This document shows positions 17,418 through 36,043 of a stretch of 48,496 nt of DNA, piece by piece. This DNA is from Eubacteriales bacterium. Lineage in GTDB: Bacteria > Bacillota > Clostridia > Lachnospirales > Lachnospiraceae. Under the pieces are notes generated by a model. It was not told the DNA's origin. It searched no databases and worked only from the letters and a program-made list of their open reading frames with translations. Made by a program: the position numbers and the translations under genes. The stretch's first letter is position 1. Each line of letters opens with the position of its first letter. The stretch covers positions 1 to 48,496 of the forward strand of contig JAUNGM010000031.1 in the NCBI GenBank assembly GCA_030524545.1, given 5' to 3'.

Positions 17418-17786
17418 TTATTTCTTCTTATTAGCTACAGTTCTCTTCGGGCCTTTACGTGTTCTTGCGTTTGTCTTGGTCTTCTGGCCGCGAACAGGAA
17501 GTCCTTTACGATGACGGATTCCTCTGTAGCATCCGATTTCCTGCAGTCTCTTAATGTTCATGGCGATTTCACGGCGAAGGTCACCTTCTACCATCATTGT
17601 CTCATCAATGACAGCACTGATTCTCTTCACTTCATCGTCTGTTAAGTCTCTGACACGTGTGTCAGGATTTACTTCTGCCTGCGCAAGGATTTTGTCTGCG
17701 CTTGGTCTTCCGATTCCATAGATGTAGGTAAGACCGATTTCGATACGTTTTTCTCTTGGTAAGTCGATACCAGCTATACGAGCCAT
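17418..17786 (-). CDS. rpsM: 30S ribosomal protein S13
   Basis: A 122-aa 30S head protein contacting the 50S subunit and P-site tRNA. It has the conserved start [26 protein letters not shown], a central helix-hairpin-helix, and the basic tail [24 protein letters not shown]. An unusually long spacer of about 320 bp with several hairpins separates it from rpmJ. Confidence 0.97.
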
Positions 17787-18106
17787 GTACTGATTCCTCC
17801 ATTTTCTTTCCTGAAAGTCTCACGTCCTGTACACCACTTGCACTTATGTACAAGGTGAAATGGGGTGCATCTGTCCGCTGCTTTCGATTATATAAGTTCC
17901 TAATTGGGGTGCCTCGGTAAAACACCCAGCCGCTTTTGGCGTAAGGCGGCCTTTCCGAATTGATGCGGTCACAGTGACCGGCGTTGCCCTCGGTATTAGG
18001 CAATACATGCTTTAATTTTTTCTGAAAAAAATTATAAAAAACAGTTGGAACAACCCATCCGGGTGTTTCCTACTGCAGCCGCACGTTTCACAAACTGTCT
18101 GTGGCA
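17787..18106 (-). other. Hairpin-rich spacer between rpmJ and rpsM
   Basis: No gene is supported in these 320 bp. On the minus strand there is a 7-bp palindromic stem, CGGTCAC/GTGACCG (17966-17980), a TTGCC/GGCAA stem (17984-18003), and a further GCCGC/GCGGC stem near 17930-17950. The segment near rpmJ is A/T-rich with a TATAAT-like box. It could be a structured leader for rpsM-rplQ, an RNA-processing site or a small insertion. No known motif is recognised. Confidence 0.5.
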
Positions 18107-18220
18107 TTAACCCTGACGCTGTTTGTGTTTTGGATTTTCACAGATTACTCTGATAGATCCTTTTCTTTTGATGATCTTGCATTTTTCGCAGATCGGCTTT
18201 ACAGATGATCTTACTTTCAC
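18107..18220 (-). CDS. rpmJ: 50S ribosomal protein L36
   Basis: A 37-aa protein starting [14 protein letters not shown] and ending [11 protein letters not shown]. The zinc ligands Cys11, Cys14, Cys27 and His32 are all present, so it is the zinc-binding form. The start is GTG, with GAAGGAGG 7 bases upstream. It is the first gene of the detached alpha segment (rpmJ-rpsM-rpsK-rpsD-rpoA-rplQ); in the usual order it directly follows infA, which here is 4.6 kb away. Confidence 0.97.
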
Positions 18221-18334
18221 TGGAAATCCTCCTTCCGTAGTATAGAGACTTAACGGATATTCGCAATCCCCATTGGGTACGATGTCCGCTCTGCAGTTAT
18301 GGACGCACTTATTTTAGGTATAAGACGCGTTCGC

Positions 18335-18363
18335 ATTATAGTTTAGCATTGGGGATAACAAAA
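18335..18363 (-). promoter_or_regulatory. Candidate promoter for the detached alpha operon
   Basis: A perfect TATAAT (18335-18340, minus) lies 17 bases from TTTTGT (18358-18363), giving a leader of about 110 bases before rpmJ. Such a promoter would be needed because rpmJ-rplQ are cut off from the spc operon by oppositely oriented and terminated genes. Confidence 0.6.
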
Positions 18364-18414
18364 TGCAAGCGTTTTTTTATAATTTTTAGAATTTTTTTTA
18401 GGTTGGGAACCTAA

Positions 18415-18460
18415 GGAAAACCGCAAAGGGTCCGTCTTGCCGGACCCTCTGCACACCCTT
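18415..18460 (-). repeat. Dispersed hairpin, copy 2
   Basis: GCAAAGGGTCCG (18423-18434) and CGGACCCTCTGC (18441-18452) form a 12-bp stem with one mismatch. The flanks GGAAAACC on one side and CACCCTTC-like bases on the other match the hairpin at 211-252. Stem bases differ in a compensated way, so structure rather than exact sequence is kept. It has the form of a terminator in front of the rpmJ promoter. Confidence 0.6.
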
Positions 18461-18472
18461 CACGCTTTTTTT

Positions 18473-18578
18473 AAACCCCGCCGCCTTTTGTTGTGGAGTG
18501 ATGTAGGATATGAGGCGGATACTAAAAACCCCGCCGCCGAGTGTTGCTTAAGAGGGATAGATATGAGGCGGATTTACT
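18473..18578. repeat. Two-copy tandem repeat, period 53 bp
   Basis: AAACCCCGCCGCC at 18473 recurs at 18526, and each copy ends with ATATGAGGCGGAT. Within each unit CCGCC near the start can pair with GGCGG near the end, so each copy can fold as a hairpin. The middle of the unit has diverged. It is directly followed by the MITE-like element. Confidence 0.7.
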
Positions 18579-18793
18579 AGTACAGTGAAAAAATAAATGA
18601 TTGGCTATATCACGCAGAATGATTTCTTCATATGCAAGGCGGAGGAATGAGGCGTAGCGGTGGCTACGGCGATTGACGGCGCTGTGTGCCAGTGGCACAC
18701 GTTTAGCGCAGACCGCAACGGAGTGTAGACCAACGCAGCAGATGAAAAATCAGGCAAGTGATATGGCTGGTTATTTATTATTCACTGTACTAG
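18577..18793. mobile_element. MITE-like element with long inverted ends and CTAG flanks
   Basis: The left end CTAGTACAGTGAA (18577-18589) reappears inverted at the right end (18781-18793). The inverted match continues imperfectly for about 35 bp (GCTATATCAC versus GCCATATCAC) and more weakly to about 57 bp. Total length is 217 bp with no ORF. CTAG borders both ends and could be a 4-bp target duplication. The centre holds a perfect GTGTGCCA/TGGCACAC hairpin. This is the form of a non-autonomous transposable element; the mobilising transposase is not in the window. Confidence 0.8.
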
Positions 18794-18852
18794 AGCGTGT
18801 TGGGGATATGACGATAAATAGAAGGTTGCTTTGAAGCAGTGGCGAGGGGAGC

Positions 18853-18880
18853 AAAAGCCCCTGCGGATGCAGGGGCTTTT
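18853..18880 (-). terminator. Intrinsic terminator of hflK-hflC
   Basis: AAAAGCCCCTGC (18853-18864) pairs perfectly with GCAGGGGCTTTT (18869-18880) around a 4-base loop; the minus strand ends in TTTTGCTCC. It lies 9 bases past the hflC stop. Confidence 0.92.
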
Positions 18881-18889
18881 GTAGGGGAG

Positions 18890-19759
18890 TTAGGATTCTC
18901 CCTGGAAGATTTGGGCGATGGGGGAATCGGCGGGGAGGATGATAGTTTTGTTGTTTCCGGTCATGGATTTTTTGAGAGCGTCGAGGCTGCGGACGAAGGA
19001 ATAGAATTCGCTGCGCTCTTCCTCACCATAGGCCTGGGCAAGAATTTTCATGTATTCCTGTTCGCCTTCGGCTTTGAGGATTTCGGCCTGTTTCTCGGCT
19101 TCGGAAATCTGGATGGCGATTTCTTTGTCTGTGGTGTTGCGGATGACTTTTGCTTCGGAGCTGCCTTCTGCGGTGTAGGTAGCTGCGATGTTGTCACGTT
19201 CGGATATCATTCGCTCGTAAACCGCTTCCTTGTTATCATCCGGCAGATCAAGCTGCTTGGTCTCAAACTCCAGGAGGGTAATTCCGTACTGGGTCATGCT
19301 GCTTCCGACGGCTTCCATTACCATTGCAGACAATTCGCCGTCACGGCTGGTGATTACTTCATCCTGGTTCATGCTGCTGATTGCATTTTTGGTAGCATTG
19401 TAAACAGCCGTATTGATTCGGCTTTCTCCGCTTTCTATGGAAGAATTTAATGTCTGGGCAAATTTCAGCGGATCTTCAATTTTCCATAAGACATAACTGT
19501 CGCTGATCATCGTCTTTTTGTCACGGGTAATGACATCGGACGGAGACAGATCATACAGCAGGGTCTGCTTTGGCAGGGTGACCGCCGTTTCGATCAAAGG
19601 CACCTTCAGGCTGATTCCCGGAGAACTGATAACCCGCTTTACTTTACCGAACTGGCGGATCAGCTTGTATTCATCCTGTGCGGTGACTGTCACAGACATG
19701 GAGGCGGCTGCGATTGCTACGACACCTATTATTATAGTAAGAATGCTTCTTTTTTTCAT
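18890..19759 (-). CDS. hflC: HflC-like SPFH-domain membrane protein
   Basis: A 289-aa membrane protein of the stomatin/prohibitin/HflK/HflC superfamily. One N-terminal membrane segment (about residues 3-25, SILTIIIGVVAIAAASMSV) is followed by the SPFH domain (about 30-200) starting EYKLIRQFGKVKRVISSPGISLKVP. A coiled-coil helix around EKQAEILKAEGEQEYMKILAQAYG leads to a C-terminal hydrophobic strand. In E. coli HflK and HflC form a cage around the FtsH protease and limit its activity. The start is ATG 19759, with GAAAGG about 10 bases upstream. It follows hflK by 102 bp, and the pair is predicted to be under a manganese-type riboswitch. Confidence 0.9.
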   Translation of the reverse strand: MKKRSILTIIIGVVAIAAASMSVTVTAQDEYKLIRQFGKVKRVISSPGISLKVPLIETAVTLPKQTLLYDLSPSDVITRDKKTMISDSYVLWKIEDPLKFAQTLNSSIESGESRINTAVYNATKNAISSMNQDEVITSRDGELSAMVMEAVGSSMTQYGITLLEFETKQLDLPDDNKEAVYERMISERDNIAATYTAEGSSEAKVIRNTTDKEIAIQISEAEKQAEILKAEGEQEYMKILAQAYGEEERSEFYSFVRSLDALKKSMTGNNKTIILPADSPIAQIFQGES

Positions 19760-19861
19760 ATTATGTACCATACCTTTCAAGCGTTATGATTGCTCTTGCC
19801 ATTTTATAAAAACCAGAGTCCTTATTTATGAGCGGATTCTTTCTCAATCTGATTCATACAT

Positions 19862-20890
19862 CTAAGATTCGGAACTACTTTCTGTTTCTTCGCTGCCGGC
19901 AGCATCCATATTTTCATTGCTCCCTGACGTGTCTACGAAGGACTCTATTGGAAGGACTTTCTGTATGCCGCTTCCATTGTCAACAATAATTTTCATTTCC
20001 GGCAGAACATCCTCCATTGTTTCATAGAACATTCTTTGTTTGGTAACCGCGGGATTCTTGATGTATTCTTCATACATAGCGTTGAATCTTGCAACCTCAG
20101 CCTCTGCCTCGTTGATCCGCACCTGCTTTTCTGCCTCGGCATCCTGAATGATCTGGTCGGCCTTTGCTTCTGCCTCCGGAAGTTTTTCATTGCGGTATTT
20201 GTTCGCATTGTTGAGGGCCGTTTCCTTGCCCTGTTTGGCTGTTTCAACCGCTTTGAATGCACGCATGACATCCTGTGTCGGAGGCTCGGAATCCTGGATG
20301 GTAATATTCACAAGCTGTATTCCAATGTCCTGTTCTTCAATTTTTTTCATGATCATTTCTTTGATCTTACTCTGAATTTCACTCTTACCGGTAGTAAGCA
20401 CATCATCCACACTGTAGCTTGCGATTACTGTACGGATGCAGCTCTGGGAAATATTCTTAAGGATACTTTCCGGTTCCTGTGAAGTATATAAATATTTGAC
20501 AGGATCATCGATCCGGTACTCAACGAAGAAATCTACATCAATAAAATTATAATCTGAAGTGATCATGATTCCTTCATGCTCTACCGTATCATTTGTCGTT
20601 TCCAAATATCCAATAGGAAATCCCTGTATTGTTGTATTCACTTTATCAACCTTTTGAATAAACGGAATTTTGAAATGAAGTCCCGTTTCCGGAACGGCCT
20701 TGGGTACTCCGAAAGTAGTGAGTACTGCCTGTTCCTGCTCCTGTATCTGATATGTACAGTCAGTAGCCAGAACTCCGATCACTGCTGCGCCGGCCACGAT
20801 CACACCTATTTTCTTTGCATGTTTTCCGGCTTTTGGCATCTTTACTCTTTTTCTTGATGAACGTTTGCTCATTTCGTCAAATTCTGTCAT
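19862..20890 (-). CDS. hflK: HflK-like SPFH-domain membrane protein
   Basis: A 342-aa partner of HflC. A basic cytosolic N-terminus (RSSRKRVKMPKAGKHAKK) precedes one membrane segment (about 28-48). The SPFH domain then starts QIQEQEQAVLTTFGVPKAVPETGLHFKIPF, followed by a long Glu/Ala-rich coiled coil (about 205-275, EAEAKADQIIQDAEAEKQ). The tail is Ser/Glu-rich and probably disordered. The start is ATG 20890, with GGAGG 5 bases upstream. It is the first gene of hflK-hflC. The leader of about 265 bases carries a yybP-ykoY-type aptamer and an intrinsic terminator. No ftsH is adjacent. Confidence 0.9.
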   Translation of the reverse strand: MTEFDEMSKRSSRKRVKMPKAGKHAKKIGVIVAGAAVIGVLATDCTYQIQEQEQAVLTTFGVPKAVPETGLHFKIPFIQKVDKVNTTIQGFPIGYLETTNDTVEHEGIMITSDYNFIDVDFFVEYRIDDPVKYLYTSQEPESILKNISQSCIRTVIASYSVDDVLTTGKSEIQSKIKEMIMKKIEEQDIGIQLVNITIQDSEPPTQDVMRAFKAVETAKQGKETALNNANKYRNEKLPEAEAKADQIIQDAEAEKQVRINEAEAEVARFNAMYEEYIKNPAVTKQRMFYETMEDVLPEMKIIVDNGSGIQKVLPIESFVDTSGSNENMDAAGSEETESSSES

Positions 20891-20981
20891 TTTGACCTCC
20901 TTCATTTTAACTTCTTTACCGGGATTCCTTTTCCATGGTAAAAGGGATTCCGATAATGCAGCGTTGAAATCATTTATCCTA

Positions 20982-21039
20982 AGAAAAGAAAAAGACTTTT
21001 ATTCCAGACAGATAACTTCTGTCTCAAAATAAAAGTCTT
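20982..21039 (-). terminator. Leader terminator (expression platform) upstream of hflK
   Basis: On the minus strand AAGACTTTTATT (21039-21028) pairs perfectly with AATAAAAGTCTT (21003-20992), with an inner AGACAGA/TCTGTCT stem, followed by TTTCTTTTCTT. It lies inside the hflK 5' leader, about 100 bases before the start codon. Its 5' arm overlaps the 3' closing strand of the aptamer (GCAAGACTTTT), so aptamer and terminator are mutually exclusive. Confidence 0.85.
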
Positions 21040-21152
21040 GCAGATTATCTCATATCGCGGATACCCGTTCCCGGATATCGTACTGACGCATATATGTACC
21101 ATTTCCCAAAACACATTCTCGGTTTCAAGTGAATGGCCGCTACTCCCTTTTC
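21031..21152 (-). ncRNA. yybP-ykoY-type (manganese) riboswitch in the hflK-hflC leader
   Basis: The RNA starts GAAAAGGGAGUAGC, matching the conserved GGAGUAGC internal loop of this class. It contains GCGUCAGUACG, corresponding to the second metal-site loop, and ends GCAAGACUUUU, matching the GCAAGA-type closing strand. AAAAG and CUUUU pair as the closing helix. A GAUAUCC/GGGUAUC hairpin (around 21056-21080) follows the second loop. A consensus promoter starts transcription at its 5' edge and a terminator overlaps its 3' edge. In characterised members Mn2+ binding stabilises the closing helix and prevents termination, so manganese would switch hflK-hflC on. That outcome is inferred. Confidence 0.75.
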
Positions 21153-21161
21153 TTTGTTAGG

Positions 21162-21190
21162 ATATTATCATATTCATCATGAAAAAGCAA
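21162..21190 (-). promoter_or_regulatory. Promoter of hflK-hflC
   Basis: TTGCTT (21185-21190) and TAATAT (21162-21167) are 17 bases apart on the minus strand. The predicted start, near 21155, falls exactly at the 5' edge of the riboswitch aptamer. Confidence 0.75.
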
Positions 21191-21278
21191 GTATTTTTTT
21201 ACCGGATTTCCTATTATTTTCAGAATTTTTATTTCGTTTCTTGTATTCTCCTATCCGTGTTTTTTCTTCTCCTATGTA

Positions 21279-21341
21279 TGGTTTTCTCCTGAAATACGTG
21301 TTATAATACCTCTTGTGAAGCGGACATAAAACATCCGCTTC
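21279..21341 (+). promoter_or_regulatory. Promoter and leader hairpin of the MATE transporter gene
   Basis: An extended -10, TGTTATAAT (TATAAT 21302-21307), has a weak TGGTTT 17 bases upstream. The transcript then begins with GAAGCGGA/TCCGCTTC (21317-21341), an 8-bp stem with a 9-base loop, followed by TTAAATTTT. ACATAAAA within the loop can alternatively pair with TTTTATGT a few bases further on. The hairpin may be an operator or attenuator; this is untested. Confidence 0.55.
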
Positions 21342-21407
21342 TTAAATTTTATGTTACGTATTATATGGATAACAACAAATAAGTACAAATGAATGGGGGA
21401 GTTTTAT

Positions 21408-22778
21408 TTGGGAAAAAATACAAATGATGTGCAAAAAACGGTATTATTTGAGCAGATGCCGATTCCGAAAGCCGTTATGACTCTGGCTGTTCCTACGGTG
21501 ATTAGTTCTCTTGTTATGGTAATTTATAACCTGGCAGATACCTATTTTGTCGGAATGATCAATGACCCGGTTCAGAATGCCGCCGTGACTCTGGCTGCAC
21601 CGGTACTGCTGGCCTTTAATGCTGTCAACAACCTGTTTGGCGTAGGGAGTTCCAGTATGATGAGCCGTGCACTGGGCCAGAAGGACTATGATACCGTATA
21701 TAAAAGTTCTGCCTTTGGATTCTACTGTTCTCTGATCTGCGGGCTGCTCTTCTCACTATTTTACACTTTATTCAGTCAGCCCCTTCTTGGAGTCCTTGGA
21801 GCAAATCCGGAAACTGCAGCAGCAACAGGGGAATATCTGAAGTGGACCGTAAGCTGCGGTGCTGCTCCTGCAATCCTGAATGTTGTCATGGCATATCTGG
21901 TGCGGGCAGAAGGTTCTTCCTTCCATGCCAGTGTGGGAACCATGAGCGGGTGCCTGCTGAACATCTTTCTGGATCCGATTTTTATAATGCCGTGGGGGCT
22001 GAATATGGGAGCTGCAGGTGCCGGACTGGCTACCTTCCTCTCCAATTGCGCGGCATGTCTTTACTTTTTTGTGCTAATCATTGTAAAAAAAGGAAAAACG
22101 TTCGTGTGTATCAACCCCAAAATGTTCGGCTTCAGCAAATCCATTGTGCTTGGTGTATGCGCCGTTGGAATCCCGGCTTCCATTCAGAATCTTTTGAATG
22201 TCACCGGTATGACGGTTCTCAACAACTTCACCTCCTCTTTCGGATCCGATGCTGTGGCCGCAATGGGAATTTCCCAGAAGATCAATATGGTTCCTTTGCA
22301 GGTTACTCTAGGTATGTCTCAGGGTATCATGCCTCTTGTAAGCTATAACTATGCCAGCGGAAACCGTCAACGTATGAAGGACACTATTTTCTTTACTGCA
22401 AAGCTTTCCCTTTCCGTACTGGTTGTGATCACAGGTATTTACTACCTTGGTGCCGGAAAACTGATTGCCCTGTTTATGAACAACGAAGCCATCATTGCTT
22501 ATGGCAGCCGCTTCCTGCGCGGACTTTGCCTGACTCTTCCGTTCCTCTGCATGGATTTCCTGGCAGTGGGCGTGTTCCAGGCCTGCGGAATGGGAAAAAA
22601 ATCACTGGTTTTTGCTATCCTCAGAAAAATTGTACTGGAAATACCAGCGATCATCCTGTTGAATCATTTCTTCCCGCTCTATGGACTGGCTTATGCCCAG
22701 CCCCTGGCCGAATTCATTCTGGCAATTGCTGCGGTCATTGTTCTTGCAAGAATGTTTCAGCAGCTTCAGAATAAATAG
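21408..22778 (+). CDS. MATE-family multidrug/sodium efflux transporter
   Basis: A 456-aa polytopic membrane protein with about 12 hydrophobic segments in two similar halves, typical of the DinF/NorM-like MATE superfamily. Family members export cationic drugs or metabolites in exchange for Na+ or H+. Characteristic motifs are VPTVISSLVMVIYNLADTYFVG in the first half and VGIPASIQNLLNVTGMTVLN in the second. The start is chosen as TTG 21408 (LGKNTNDVQKTVLFEQ) because GGGGGAG lies 6 bases upstream; an ATG 15 bases earlier overlaps that site. It is divergent from hflK and lies inside the break between infA and rpmJ. The substrate is unknown. Confidence 0.92.
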   Translation: MGKNTNDVQKTVLFEQMPIPKAVMTLAVPTVISSLVMVIYNLADTYFVGMINDPVQNAAVTLAAPVLLAFNAVNNLFGVGSSSMMSRALGQKDYDTVYKSSAFGFYCSLICGLLFSLFYTLFSQPLLGVLGANPETAAATGEYLKWTVSCGAAPAILNVVMAYLVRAEGSSFHASVGTMSGCLLNIFLDPIFIMPWGLNMGAAGAGLATFLSNCAACLYFFVLIIVKKGKTFVCINPKMFGFSKSIVLGVCAVGIPASIQNLLNVTGMTVLNNFTSSFGSDAVAAMGISQKINMVPLQVTLGMSQGIMPLVSYNYASGNRQRMKDTIFFTAKLSLSVLVVITGIYYLGAGKLIALFMNNEAIIAYGSRFLRGLCLTLPFLCMDFLAVGVFQACGMGKKSLVFAILRKIVLEIPAIILLNHFFPLYGLAYAQPLAEFILAIAAVIVLARMFQQLQNK

Positions 22779-22783
22779 ACCTA

Positions 22784-22819
22784 AACTCCGGTCACTCATT
22801 TATGAGCCCGGAGTTTTTC
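22784..22819 (+). terminator. Intrinsic terminator of the MATE gene
   Basis: AACTCCGG (22784-22791) pairs with CCGGAGTT (22808-22815), followed by TTT. It lies just after the stop codon. Confidence 0.85.
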
Positions 22820-22833
22820 TATATACCACATAA

Positions 22834-22853
22834 AGGCCCGGGTAACCGGGCCT
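22834..22853 (-). terminator. Hairpin after infA, probable end of the spc operon
   Basis: AGGCCCGG (22834-22841) and CCGGGCCT (22846-22853) form a perfect GC-rich 8-bp stem with a 4-base loop, 11 bases past the infA stop. The minus-strand tail TTATG is short, so termination may be partial; the plus side has GTTGTTTTATT. Confidence 0.65.
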
Positions 22854-22864
22854 CTGTTGTTTTA

Positions 22865-23083
22865 TTATTTATCTCGCCAGATAATTCTGCCTTTAGACAA
22901 ATCATATGGAGAAAGTTCAATGGTAACTTTATCTCCTGGAAGGATACGGATGAAATTCATACGCAGTTTTCCACTGATATGAGCCAACACAACATGTTTA
23001 TTTTCAAGTTCTACTTTAAACATTGCGTTAGGCAGTTTCTCCAATACAGTGCCTTCCACCTCAATCACATCTGCTTTAGACAT
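22865..23083 (-). CDS. infA: Translation initiation factor IF-1
   Basis: A 72-aa OB-fold protein that binds the 30S A site during initiation. The sequence [20 protein letters not shown] through [19 protein letters not shown] and [14 protein letters not shown] is canonical in length and content. A GGAGG site lies 6 bases upstream. It follows map by 26 bp and is the last gene of the uninterrupted rpsJ-to-infA run. Confidence 0.98.
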
Positions 23084-23109
23084 ATTAAACCTCCTGTGTC
23101 TTCCTTCTG

Positions 23110-23865
23110 TTACTTGGTGAGAGTCAGAATCTCCGGTTCACCATCCGTGATCAGGATAGTGTTCTCGTAATGAGCGGACAGAGACCCGTCCATGGTAACT
23201 ACTGTCCAGTCATCATCCTCCCATGCTACATCAGCCCGGCCAAGGTTGATCATCGGCTCTATGGCCAGCGTCATACCAGGCATCAATTTGATTCCTCTGC
23301 GCTTCTGCGGAAAATTAGGAATCTGGGGATCTTCATGAAGATGCGTTCCGATTCCGTGCCCCACAAGGTCACGCACGATACCATAGCGGTATTTGGCAGC
23401 ATATGCGCCGATTGCCTTTGAAATATCATTCAGATGATTCCCGGCCTTAGCGAATTTAATGCCCTCAAAAAAGCATTGCTTTGTAACCTCCATAAGCTGC
23501 TTAGCCTCTGGAGCAACTTCACCTACCGCATAAGTACGGGCCGCATCCGAATGATAACCTTTATAAATCAATCCGGCATCGATCTTCACCAGATCGCCTT
23601 CCTGGATGATTTTTTTCTCGGAAGGAATTCCGTGCACCACCTCATCATTCAGACTGATGCAGAAGGAGCCTGGAAAGCCCTGGTAATTCAAAAAGTTGGG
23701 AATACAGCCAAGGGAACGGATCATTTCTTCACCGATACGATCCAGCTCCTTGGTGCTGATTCCCGGTTTAATATAGGCGGCAAGATCATCATGAACCTTT
23801 TCCAGAAGATGGCCTGCCTCCCTCATAAGTGCTATTTCATGTTCTGACTTGATAGAAACTGACAT
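23110..23865 (-). CDS. map: Methionine aminopeptidase, type I
   Basis: A 251-aa metalloprotease that removes the initiator Met from nascent proteins. The five metal ligands are in recognisable motifs: [16 protein letters not shown] (two Asp), [12 protein letters not shown] (His), EPMINLG (Glu) and YENTILIT (Glu). There is no N-terminal zinc-finger extension, as is usual in bacteria. It begins 3 bp after the adk stop, with GGGAG upstream. Confidence 0.98.
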
Positions 23866-23868
23866 TCT

Positions 23869-24513
23869 TTATTCTCCCAAGATTGCCACGATTTCCTGGA
23901 ATACTTCTTCCAGGTTCTTAGTACCGTCAACAGTCTTCAGAACTCCCTGCCCTGTATAATAGTCAATCAGCGGCTGGGTCTGGTCATGATATACTTTCAG
24001 ACGTTTGCTTACGGTTTCCGGCTTGTCATCGTCACGAAGAACAAGACCCTCTCCGCAGGTATCACATACGCCCTCTGTCTTAGGAGCTGCATAAACGATA
24101 TGATACGTAGCGCCGCATTTTAAGCATGCACGTCTTCCGGACATACGGTTTACGATGTTTTCATCCGGCACATCTACGTCAATGGCATAATCAATCTTAC
24201 TGTCTAATTTGTTCAGTGCCTCCGTCAAACATTCCGCCTGAGGAATTGTTCTCGGGAAACCATCCAATACATAACCTTTCTGTGCATCCGGCTGCTGAAT
24301 TCTGTCTACAACCAGATCGCATGTCAGTTCATCCGGAACAAGAAGTCCCTGATCCATGTAAGTTTTTGCTTTTTTGCCCAGTTCTGTGCCGTTTTTGATG
24401 TTTGCACGGAAAATATCGCCTGTAGAGATGTGCGGAATACCGTATTTCTCAGCGATTTTCTTTGCCTGTGTACCTTTGCCTGCACCTGGTGCACCCAACA
24501 TAATGATTCTCAT
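23869..24513 (-). CDS. adk: Adenylate kinase
   Basis: A 214-aa enzyme that interconverts ATP + AMP and 2 ADP. The P-loop [10 protein letters not shown] lies at residues 7-16, and the NMP-binding region has [10 protein letters not shown] and DGFPRT. The LID carries a Cys4 zinc site (Cys130, Cys133, Cys150, Cys153), usual for Gram-positive enzymes. The start is ATG 24513, with GGAGGG about 8 bases upstream; the frame extends upstream without a ribosome site. A 200-bp structured spacer separates it from secY. Confidence 0.97.
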
Positions 24514-24715
24514 ACTAATACCCTCCGTATCTTTTTCTTGTGGCTTTACAGAAGCCATGCGGCGTGATTCCGCTTCGCCCAATCACGCTTAGGCATACGT
24601 CTGTCAGATACAGATGCTTATGTGTAAACCCGACACATCTGCCTTTGATATCTGCTGCATGGCTTAAGTGTAAGCAAATCAAGGCTGCGGCACTTGCGTA
24701 CCACAACCTTCATTT
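24514..24715 (-). other. Multi-stem structured spacer between secY and adk
   Basis: On the minus strand, right after secY, a 12-bp hairpin (24681-24710, AAGGTTGTGGTA with TGCCGCAGCCTT, some G-U pairs) is followed by a second domain closed by AAGCCATGC/GCATGGCTT (24665-24657 with 24560-24552). Inside it are ATGTGT/ACACAT with a 7-base loop, CAGATA/TATCTG around it, and an 8-bp GCGTGATT/AATCACGC arm (24562-24588). No ORF or known riboswitch is recognised. It could be a regulatory leader of adk-map-infA or a mobile hairpin element. Confidence 0.6.
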
Positions 24716-35819: not shown

Positions 35820-36043
35820 AAAAAAAGTCTCCTCCTATTCGTACTCGGTTATCGGTACGACAAGCGGCGACTGTACACATCTCCACGCGTGTCCTGGTAC
35901 TCACCAGCGCGTGCCCATCCCCAGATGGCTTTCTGAACTTGTACAGTGACTTGTCGTCAGTTTCCTAACTTGACATTCGCTCCACGGAAAACCTGCCTCA
36001 TCCGGGCAGCAACCTCTCGCTTCATTGCTATCATGTCACAGCA
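35820..36043 (-). ncRNA. Structured 5' leader of the S10 operon
   Basis: The leader of about 224 bases folds into nested helices on the minus strand. CGACAAG/CTTGTCG (35950-35956 with 35858-35864) encloses ACTGTACA/TGTACAGT (35940-35947 with 35870-35877). Inside are GCCATC/GATGGGC and CACGCG-CTGGT/ACCAG-CGCGTG hairpins. A GTCAAGTT/AACTGAC stem precedes it, and a CGTAC/GTACG stem lies next to the ribosome site. There is no U-run. By analogy with E. coli it may be bound by L4 or another r-protein. Confidence 0.75.

Follow-up and report, generated by a model that had tools for sequence, protein, structure and literature searches.

The hflK-hflC genes of this Lachnospiraceae genome are preceded by a leader RNA that, judged from its sequence, is most likely a switch of the yybP-ykoY class, because a covariance model built from 18 hflK leaders only (R1) matches MntP and GDT1 loci and a second one (R3), restricted to 29 leaders of SPFH and coiled-coil/YccF genes, finds the E. 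coli mntP leader weakly. We consider it probable that this leader is a transcriptional metal riboswitch of that class, which turns hflK-hflC ON at high ion, the ion most likely being Mn2+. Mn2+ would be the ligand by analogy; known members are the source for its binding, for the docking of the loops and for switching in the ON direction. In the window (the whole stretch of DNA analysed, 48,496 nucleotides of contig JAUNGM010000031.1), reading along the minus strand gave the order likely promoter, aptamer, terminator, hflK and hflC. The features are as follows, with motif counts taken from A2, a set of 58 loci aligned by fit to R1.

21162..21190, minus strand: likely promoter, TTGCTT at 21190-21185, a 17 nt spacer and TAATAT at 21167-21162; weak -35
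21032..21154, minus strand: putative yybP-ykoY-class aptamer, multi-helix, with P1, P2, P3 with L3, and a weak P4
21139..21147, minus strand: conserved loop L1, GGGAGUAGC, in 57/58 A2 members
21079..21089, minus strand: conserved L3 strand, GCGUCAGUACG; CGUCA in 55/58 A2 members, CG[AC]CA in 1 and the GUCAACAUAC form in 2
21031..21041, minus strand: P1 3' strand, GCAAGACUUUU, common to the terminator; GC[AG]AGAC in 57/58 A2 members, and by fold
20981..21039, minus strand: intrinsic terminator, hairpin 21039-20992 and T-rich tract 20991-20981
19862..20890, minus strand: hflK, SPFH protein; ATG at 20890, GGAGG at 20900-20896; TIGR01933 and PF01145
18890..19780 (start approximate), minus strand: hflC, the gene after hflK, SPFH protein; TIGR01932 and PF01145

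The RNA start, internal motif and closing strand described in an earlier, sequence-only reading of this DNA were all present by direct reading, as GGGAGTAGC (L1, 21147-21139), GCGTCAGTACG (L3, 21089-21079) and GCAAGACTTTT (21041-21031). The same reading took the terminator 5' arm to be the closing-strand segment, and both do contain AAGACTTTT. Its 'consensus promoter' was overstated, as TTGCTT matches the consensus at 3/6 positions and TAATAT at 4/6, with a TG preceding the -10. A TATGATAATAT-like promoter stretch was found again in several relatives, and simple promoter and terminator scans listed neither the likely promoter nor any terminator. The aptamer scored 135.3 bits with R1 and 76.2 bits with R2, a broader model built from the 58 A2 loci, both models having been built partly from this sequence. 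The leader folded at -57.2 kcal/mol, compared to a shuffle mean of -37.6 (sd 4.2), and 0/200 shuffles were as good; the terminator folded at -22.7 kcal/mol. By BLAST, a similar stretch occurred in 22/61 genomes, counting the source genome, with weak and short matches in two (G038, G045).

Both downstream proteins passed their NCBIfam equivalog cut-offs, HflK with 229.8 bits (TIGR01933, cut-off 159.4) and HflC with 173.7 bits (TIGR01932, cut-off 134.4), in agreement with the SPFH genes read there earlier and in likeness to E. coli HflK-HflC. The closest named HflK relatives were Blautia and Lachnospiraceae records, and the source genome holds four FtsH-type M41 matches. E. coli hflK is not known to have a riboswitch upstream. 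A further difference is that E. coli HflKC is described as required for growth at high aeration (PMC12005517). At window positions 17418-24582, the hflKC genes and an opposite-strand MATE gene interrupt a ribosomal gene block, with an infA-like gene on one side and an rpsM-like gene on the other (ribosomal names assigned by eye). Two ribosomal leaders in the window were over their Rfam cut-offs, S10-Clostridia at 35951-36033 and S4-Clostridia at 17899-17955.

Covariation was scored on two alignments. A1 comprised the 18 hflK leaders of R1, aligned and then scored with a hand-drawn structure; L021, an hflK leader (G014) with an insert of ~90 nt near P4, and L019, an hflK leader (G010) that keeps the terminator and is missing the aptamer, were left out. 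In A1, 88.8% of cells were paired, compared to 31-44% when the structure was slid and a mean of 85.2% in shuffles, 0/500 of which were as high. Change on both sides was observed in 10/29 pairs (2/500 shuffles as high), and the number of further pair types (19 versus 17.2 in shuffles; 103/500 as high) was not above chance. In A2, 90.6% of cells were paired, compared to 27-42% when slid and 67.8% in shuffles, with change on both sides in 23/28 pairs. P4 was weak in both (35.8% of cells paired in A1, 61.3% in A2). These counts agree with a junction of several helices that P1 closes and in which L3 forms an internal loop. The motifs of the yybP-ykoY class are L1 GGGAGUAGC, an L3 with UCA and a 3' GC[AG]AGAC strand, and the leader carries all three. 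L1 and GC[AG]AGAC were each kept in 57/58 A2 members. L3 was of the CG[U/A/C]CA form in 56/58, the remaining two, at MntP and GDT1 loci, having GUCAACAUAC, and L1 and the 3' strand were identical across both L3 forms. Three hflK leaders outside A2 (L007, L012, L014) have CGACA in L3.

The P1 3' strand doubles as the 5' arm of the terminator, as seen from both the sequence overlap and the folds. A terminator stem of at least 12 pairs using this strand was found in 56/58 members versus 23/1160 shuffles, which preserve single-base content only; the exceptions were L055 (0 pairs) and L042 (11), and the leader studied here has a 17-pair stem. These figures come from the stricter version of the test, a lenient one (58/58) having been discarded as it chose the wrong hairpin in L017. 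In the L. lactis switch, as described in PMC11087558, Mn2+ stabilises P1.1 and enforces readthrough, and the P1/terminator overlap found here corresponds to that ON design. Without ion, AAGACUUUUAUU would pair with AAUAAAAGUCUU and transcription would end ahead of hflK. With ion, L1 GGGAGUAGC would dock with L3 (CGUCA...), helix P1 (AAAAG/CUUUU) would keep the terminator strand and polymerase would read through.

The same architecture and ON mechanism could also serve a CGUCA short-loop L3 that senses another divalent ion, e.g. Ca2+, a reading that we regard as possible though unlikely. A review expects yybP variants of altered divalent-ion specificity (PMC7266159). CaCA exchangers, Ca-type P-ATPases and Na+-pump genes would be consistent with Ca2+, and the switch often precedes CaCA and P-type ATPase genes (see below). 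In the source genome, the CaCA protein passes as a calcium/sodium antiporter and the ATPase is nearest the PMR1 Ca type (a fragment, below the PMR1 cut-off). The split in L3 points the same way, with CG[U/A/C]CA in all A2 members except the MntP and GDT1 loci with GUCAACAUAC. Against this, the two L3 forms do not differ in L1 or in the 3' strand, and CGUCA is also the form of the L. lactis switch. The CGUCA form occurs at three TerC-type loci too (TerC was Pfam-checked on one), and in B. subtilis a Mn-responsive riboswitch is reported to control the TerC gene meeY (PMC10550928). Mn2+ is retained here as the probable ligand.

The sequence-only reading had pointed to the Rfam RF00080 covariance model as a check, with a score below threshold to count against its claim, and this was run without a match for the leader at any threshold tried: none in the window, none at E<=10 on 20900-21300 and none at the locus in a whole-genome scan. 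The RF00080 cut-off does not decide membership, because the leader of mntP, the E. coli Mn2+ exporter gene, also falls under it (41.6 bits, cut-off 45) and yields no call at the gathering threshold; the hflK leader is farther from the model than the mntP leader. Both L1 and GUCA are present in the RF00080 consensus. Searches over more than 40 genomes used stricter filters with few candidates scored per genome, so that their counts are lower bounds. Across 392 genomes of the order, which we take to be Lachnospirales (GTDB), RF00080 gave weak matches in at least 26 and reached its gathering cut-off in 0/392 in this strict-filter search. The same search matched 3/14 control genomes, two over the cut-off, with Lactococcus lactis not among them. 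At E<=10 on 19 loci, the sole match was L058 (30.3 bits).

R1 matched at least 48/392 genomes of the order. It was in place at 24/30 weak RF00080 loci of the order, 20 of them with E<0.01; it missed five (L062, L072, L073, L078, L087) and matched elsewhere for L079. These 30 loci include MntP, GDT1, P-type ATPase and CaCA genes and one OadB. R1 did not match E. coli mntP with filters; unfiltered, it scored 6.3 bits at the right place and was beaten by 8.8 bits on the other strand. R2 gave a single match in 20 kb of E. coli DNA, at the mntP leader (26.6 bits), and with it at least 112/398 genomes of the phylum were matched; among the 29 R2 loci read in the phylum, P-type ATPase, CaCA-type, OadB and TerC-type genes were present. 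R3 was built without MntP or GDT1 because R2 holds one locus of each. It matched 20/20 chosen loci (3 MntP, 10 GDT1, 3 TerC, 2 P-ATPase, 1 OadB and E. coli mntP), of which those for MntP and GDT1 had been found with RF00080 or R1 and those for TerC, P-ATPase and OadB with R2. Its match to E. coli mntP was weak (19.5 bits, E 0.032) and fell at the same coordinates as that of R2.

The class membership proposed in the sequence-only reading is supported by these links of R1-R3 to MntP, GDT1, P-type ATPase and TerC loci and E. coli mntP, by covariation and by terminator design. Set beside the class (RF00080; E. coli mntP, the B. subtilis meeY/ykoY TerC switches, L. lactis), the leader is alike in its L1, L3 UCA and 3' strand motifs, in the competition of P1 with a terminator and in the loci to which the models join it. 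It is unlike the class in its SPFH gene targets, in lacking a match to the Rfam model and, for most Blautia-type hflK leaders, in a longer P2. It is very improbable that the leader is a terminator-attenuator or protein-bound leader merely resembling a riboswitch; RF00080 without a match at the locus would suit such a leader, whereas the loops are conserved, covariation spans gene contexts and models from these leaders recover MntP, GDT1 and TerC loci as well as E. coli mntP. Chance resemblance to a riboswitch was rejected. RF00080 misses many class switches in this order, and the known regulon is therefore probably too small.

The link between the yybP-ykoY-class leader and hflK was maintained across relatives. 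In the genus, R1 matched at least 45/64 genomes searched and HflK matches (E<=1e-40) were found in 46/64. Among genus HflK loci of at least 76% identity, 31/34 had an R1 leader 108-304 nt upstream, with distances measured up to where the tblastn match begins rather than to the start codon, and 35/69 listed R1 matches used for this count. The three exceptions were G007, whose leader sits on a different contig, at its end, and the two copies in G010. At HflK loci of no more than 66% identity, the leader was found at 0/13, all 69 listed R1 matches having been checked against their contigs. Across the order, the leader stood at 9/30 best HflK loci, under four genus labels (g1, g31, g86, g30). In named genomes, R2 matched at 34 of the best 80 of 499 HflK loci, always upstream and on the hflK strand. 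Carriers include Blautia schinkii, B. wexlerae, B. caecimuris, Robinsoniella peoriensis and Murimonas intestini, the record of the last being marked as unverified contamination. Neighbourhoods of the leader-hflK unit varied, lying behind adk- and map-like genes in some genomes and other genes elsewhere (named by eye), with one unit ~1.3 kb past the end of a 23S rRNA. That an exporter was lost from behind the switch, with hflK there by accident, the alternative raised in the sequence-only reading and one that the description of the class before putative cation transporters (PMC7266159) might favour, is barely credible because the source genome has three more switch copies: leader and hflK stay together in 31/34 close loci, in varied neighbourhoods and in other genera, and transporter genes in the same genome own separate switches.

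Of the four R2 sites of the source genome, one precedes hflKC and the others precede genes for a P-type ATPase, for a CaCA exchanger and for a coiled-coil/YccF pair; its two MntP genes had no R2 match. Of the 49 R1 sites listed outside the genus, 46 were examined, and the first long gene behind them encoded a P-type ATPase at 14, a CaCA protein at 10, HflK at 5, OadB at 4, a coiled-coil protein at 4, a prohibitin-like SPFH protein at 4, a flotillin-like protein at 2, and CitMHS-type, DUF1538 and a protein with no label at 1 each. SPFH genes followed 11/46 of these sites as a raw count. Most gene labels were motifs in translations; the SPFH domain was found by Pfam in 8/8 tested (L037, L188, L189, L191, L192, L194, L202, L203), and the remaining three SPFH sites (L035, L038, L039) were labelled by motif. 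These SPFH sites stand for fewer than 11 independent events, since L037-L039 have near-identical leaders and one genus label. In four loci (L053, L082, L165, L185) the labelled gene is several hundred bases off, and L177 is truncated where its contig stops.

Within the genus, 37/69 listed R1 sites lay away from hflK: 12 before P-ATPase, 6 coiled-coil, 5 CaCA, 4 OadB and 3 flotillin-like genes, 1 before a distant other SPFH gene, 1 before MntP and 5 before others or genes without a label. In G024 and G445 the switch occurs at both hflK and a flotillin-like gene. Flotillin-like proteins matched Pfam Band_7 and Flot (Flot under its cut-off in L175) and did not reach the NCBIfam FloT cut-off.

Other genes also lay behind the switch. 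A coiled-coil protein of ~140 aa was found at 11 loci (L315, L162, L168, L171, L174, L176, L181, L187, L190, L201, L205), with yccF as the next gene in 8/11 (7/10 loci in relatives and the source genome); Pfam, run on four of these proteins, matched none. OadB, the beta subunit of a Na+-pumping decarboxylase, followed at L036, L042, L047, L049, L055 and L062 (Pfam and NCBIfam on L036), and a literature search joining OadB and yybP-ykoY returned a single paper, on the Na+ riboswitch. At L180, L186, L183 and L199 the switch was followed by membrane genes of the CitMHS type (two), for a Na/Pi cotransporter and for DUF1538.

In B. subtilis, loss of the TerC proteins MeeF and MeeY is reported to make FtsH essential, and FtsH, FloT and FloA are listed in the co-immunoprecipitation table for these two proteins (PMC10550928), and Mn excess is reported to activate YqgP, which presents MgtE to FtsH (PMC7231995). 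As described in these sources, Mn excess or export is tied to FtsH there through protein, whereas the link here would be an RNA switch on scaffold genes. By analogy, a metal switch on SPFH genes would fit this Mn-FtsH picture, and HflKC may adjust FtsH-type membrane protein turnover, or scaffold exporters, at metal excess. We hypothesise manganese-linked control of membrane protein quality control, an idea that gains from the flotillin-like and prohibitin-like genes that follow the same RNA. Full-text searches, with most subscription papers outside their scope, found no paper joining yybP-ykoY and hflK or manganese riboswitch and hflC, and only the TerC paper (PMC10550928) for yybP-ykoY and flotillin. 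On SPFH, manganese and HflK they gave no title with riboswitch, and earlier notice is possible among the subscription papers.

Together, the gene contexts suggest that membrane scaffolds may be part of the cell's metal response. We judge the chances to be about evenly balanced that in this order HflK, two flotillin-like types, prohibitin-like proteins and the coiled-coil/YccF pair were separately recruited to one divalent-metal riboswitch class, which would make scaffolding a regular part of tolerance to manganese or another divalent metal, beside export. The repeated SPFH link offers a testable physiological signal for bacterial HflKC, flotillin-like and prohibitin-like proteins.
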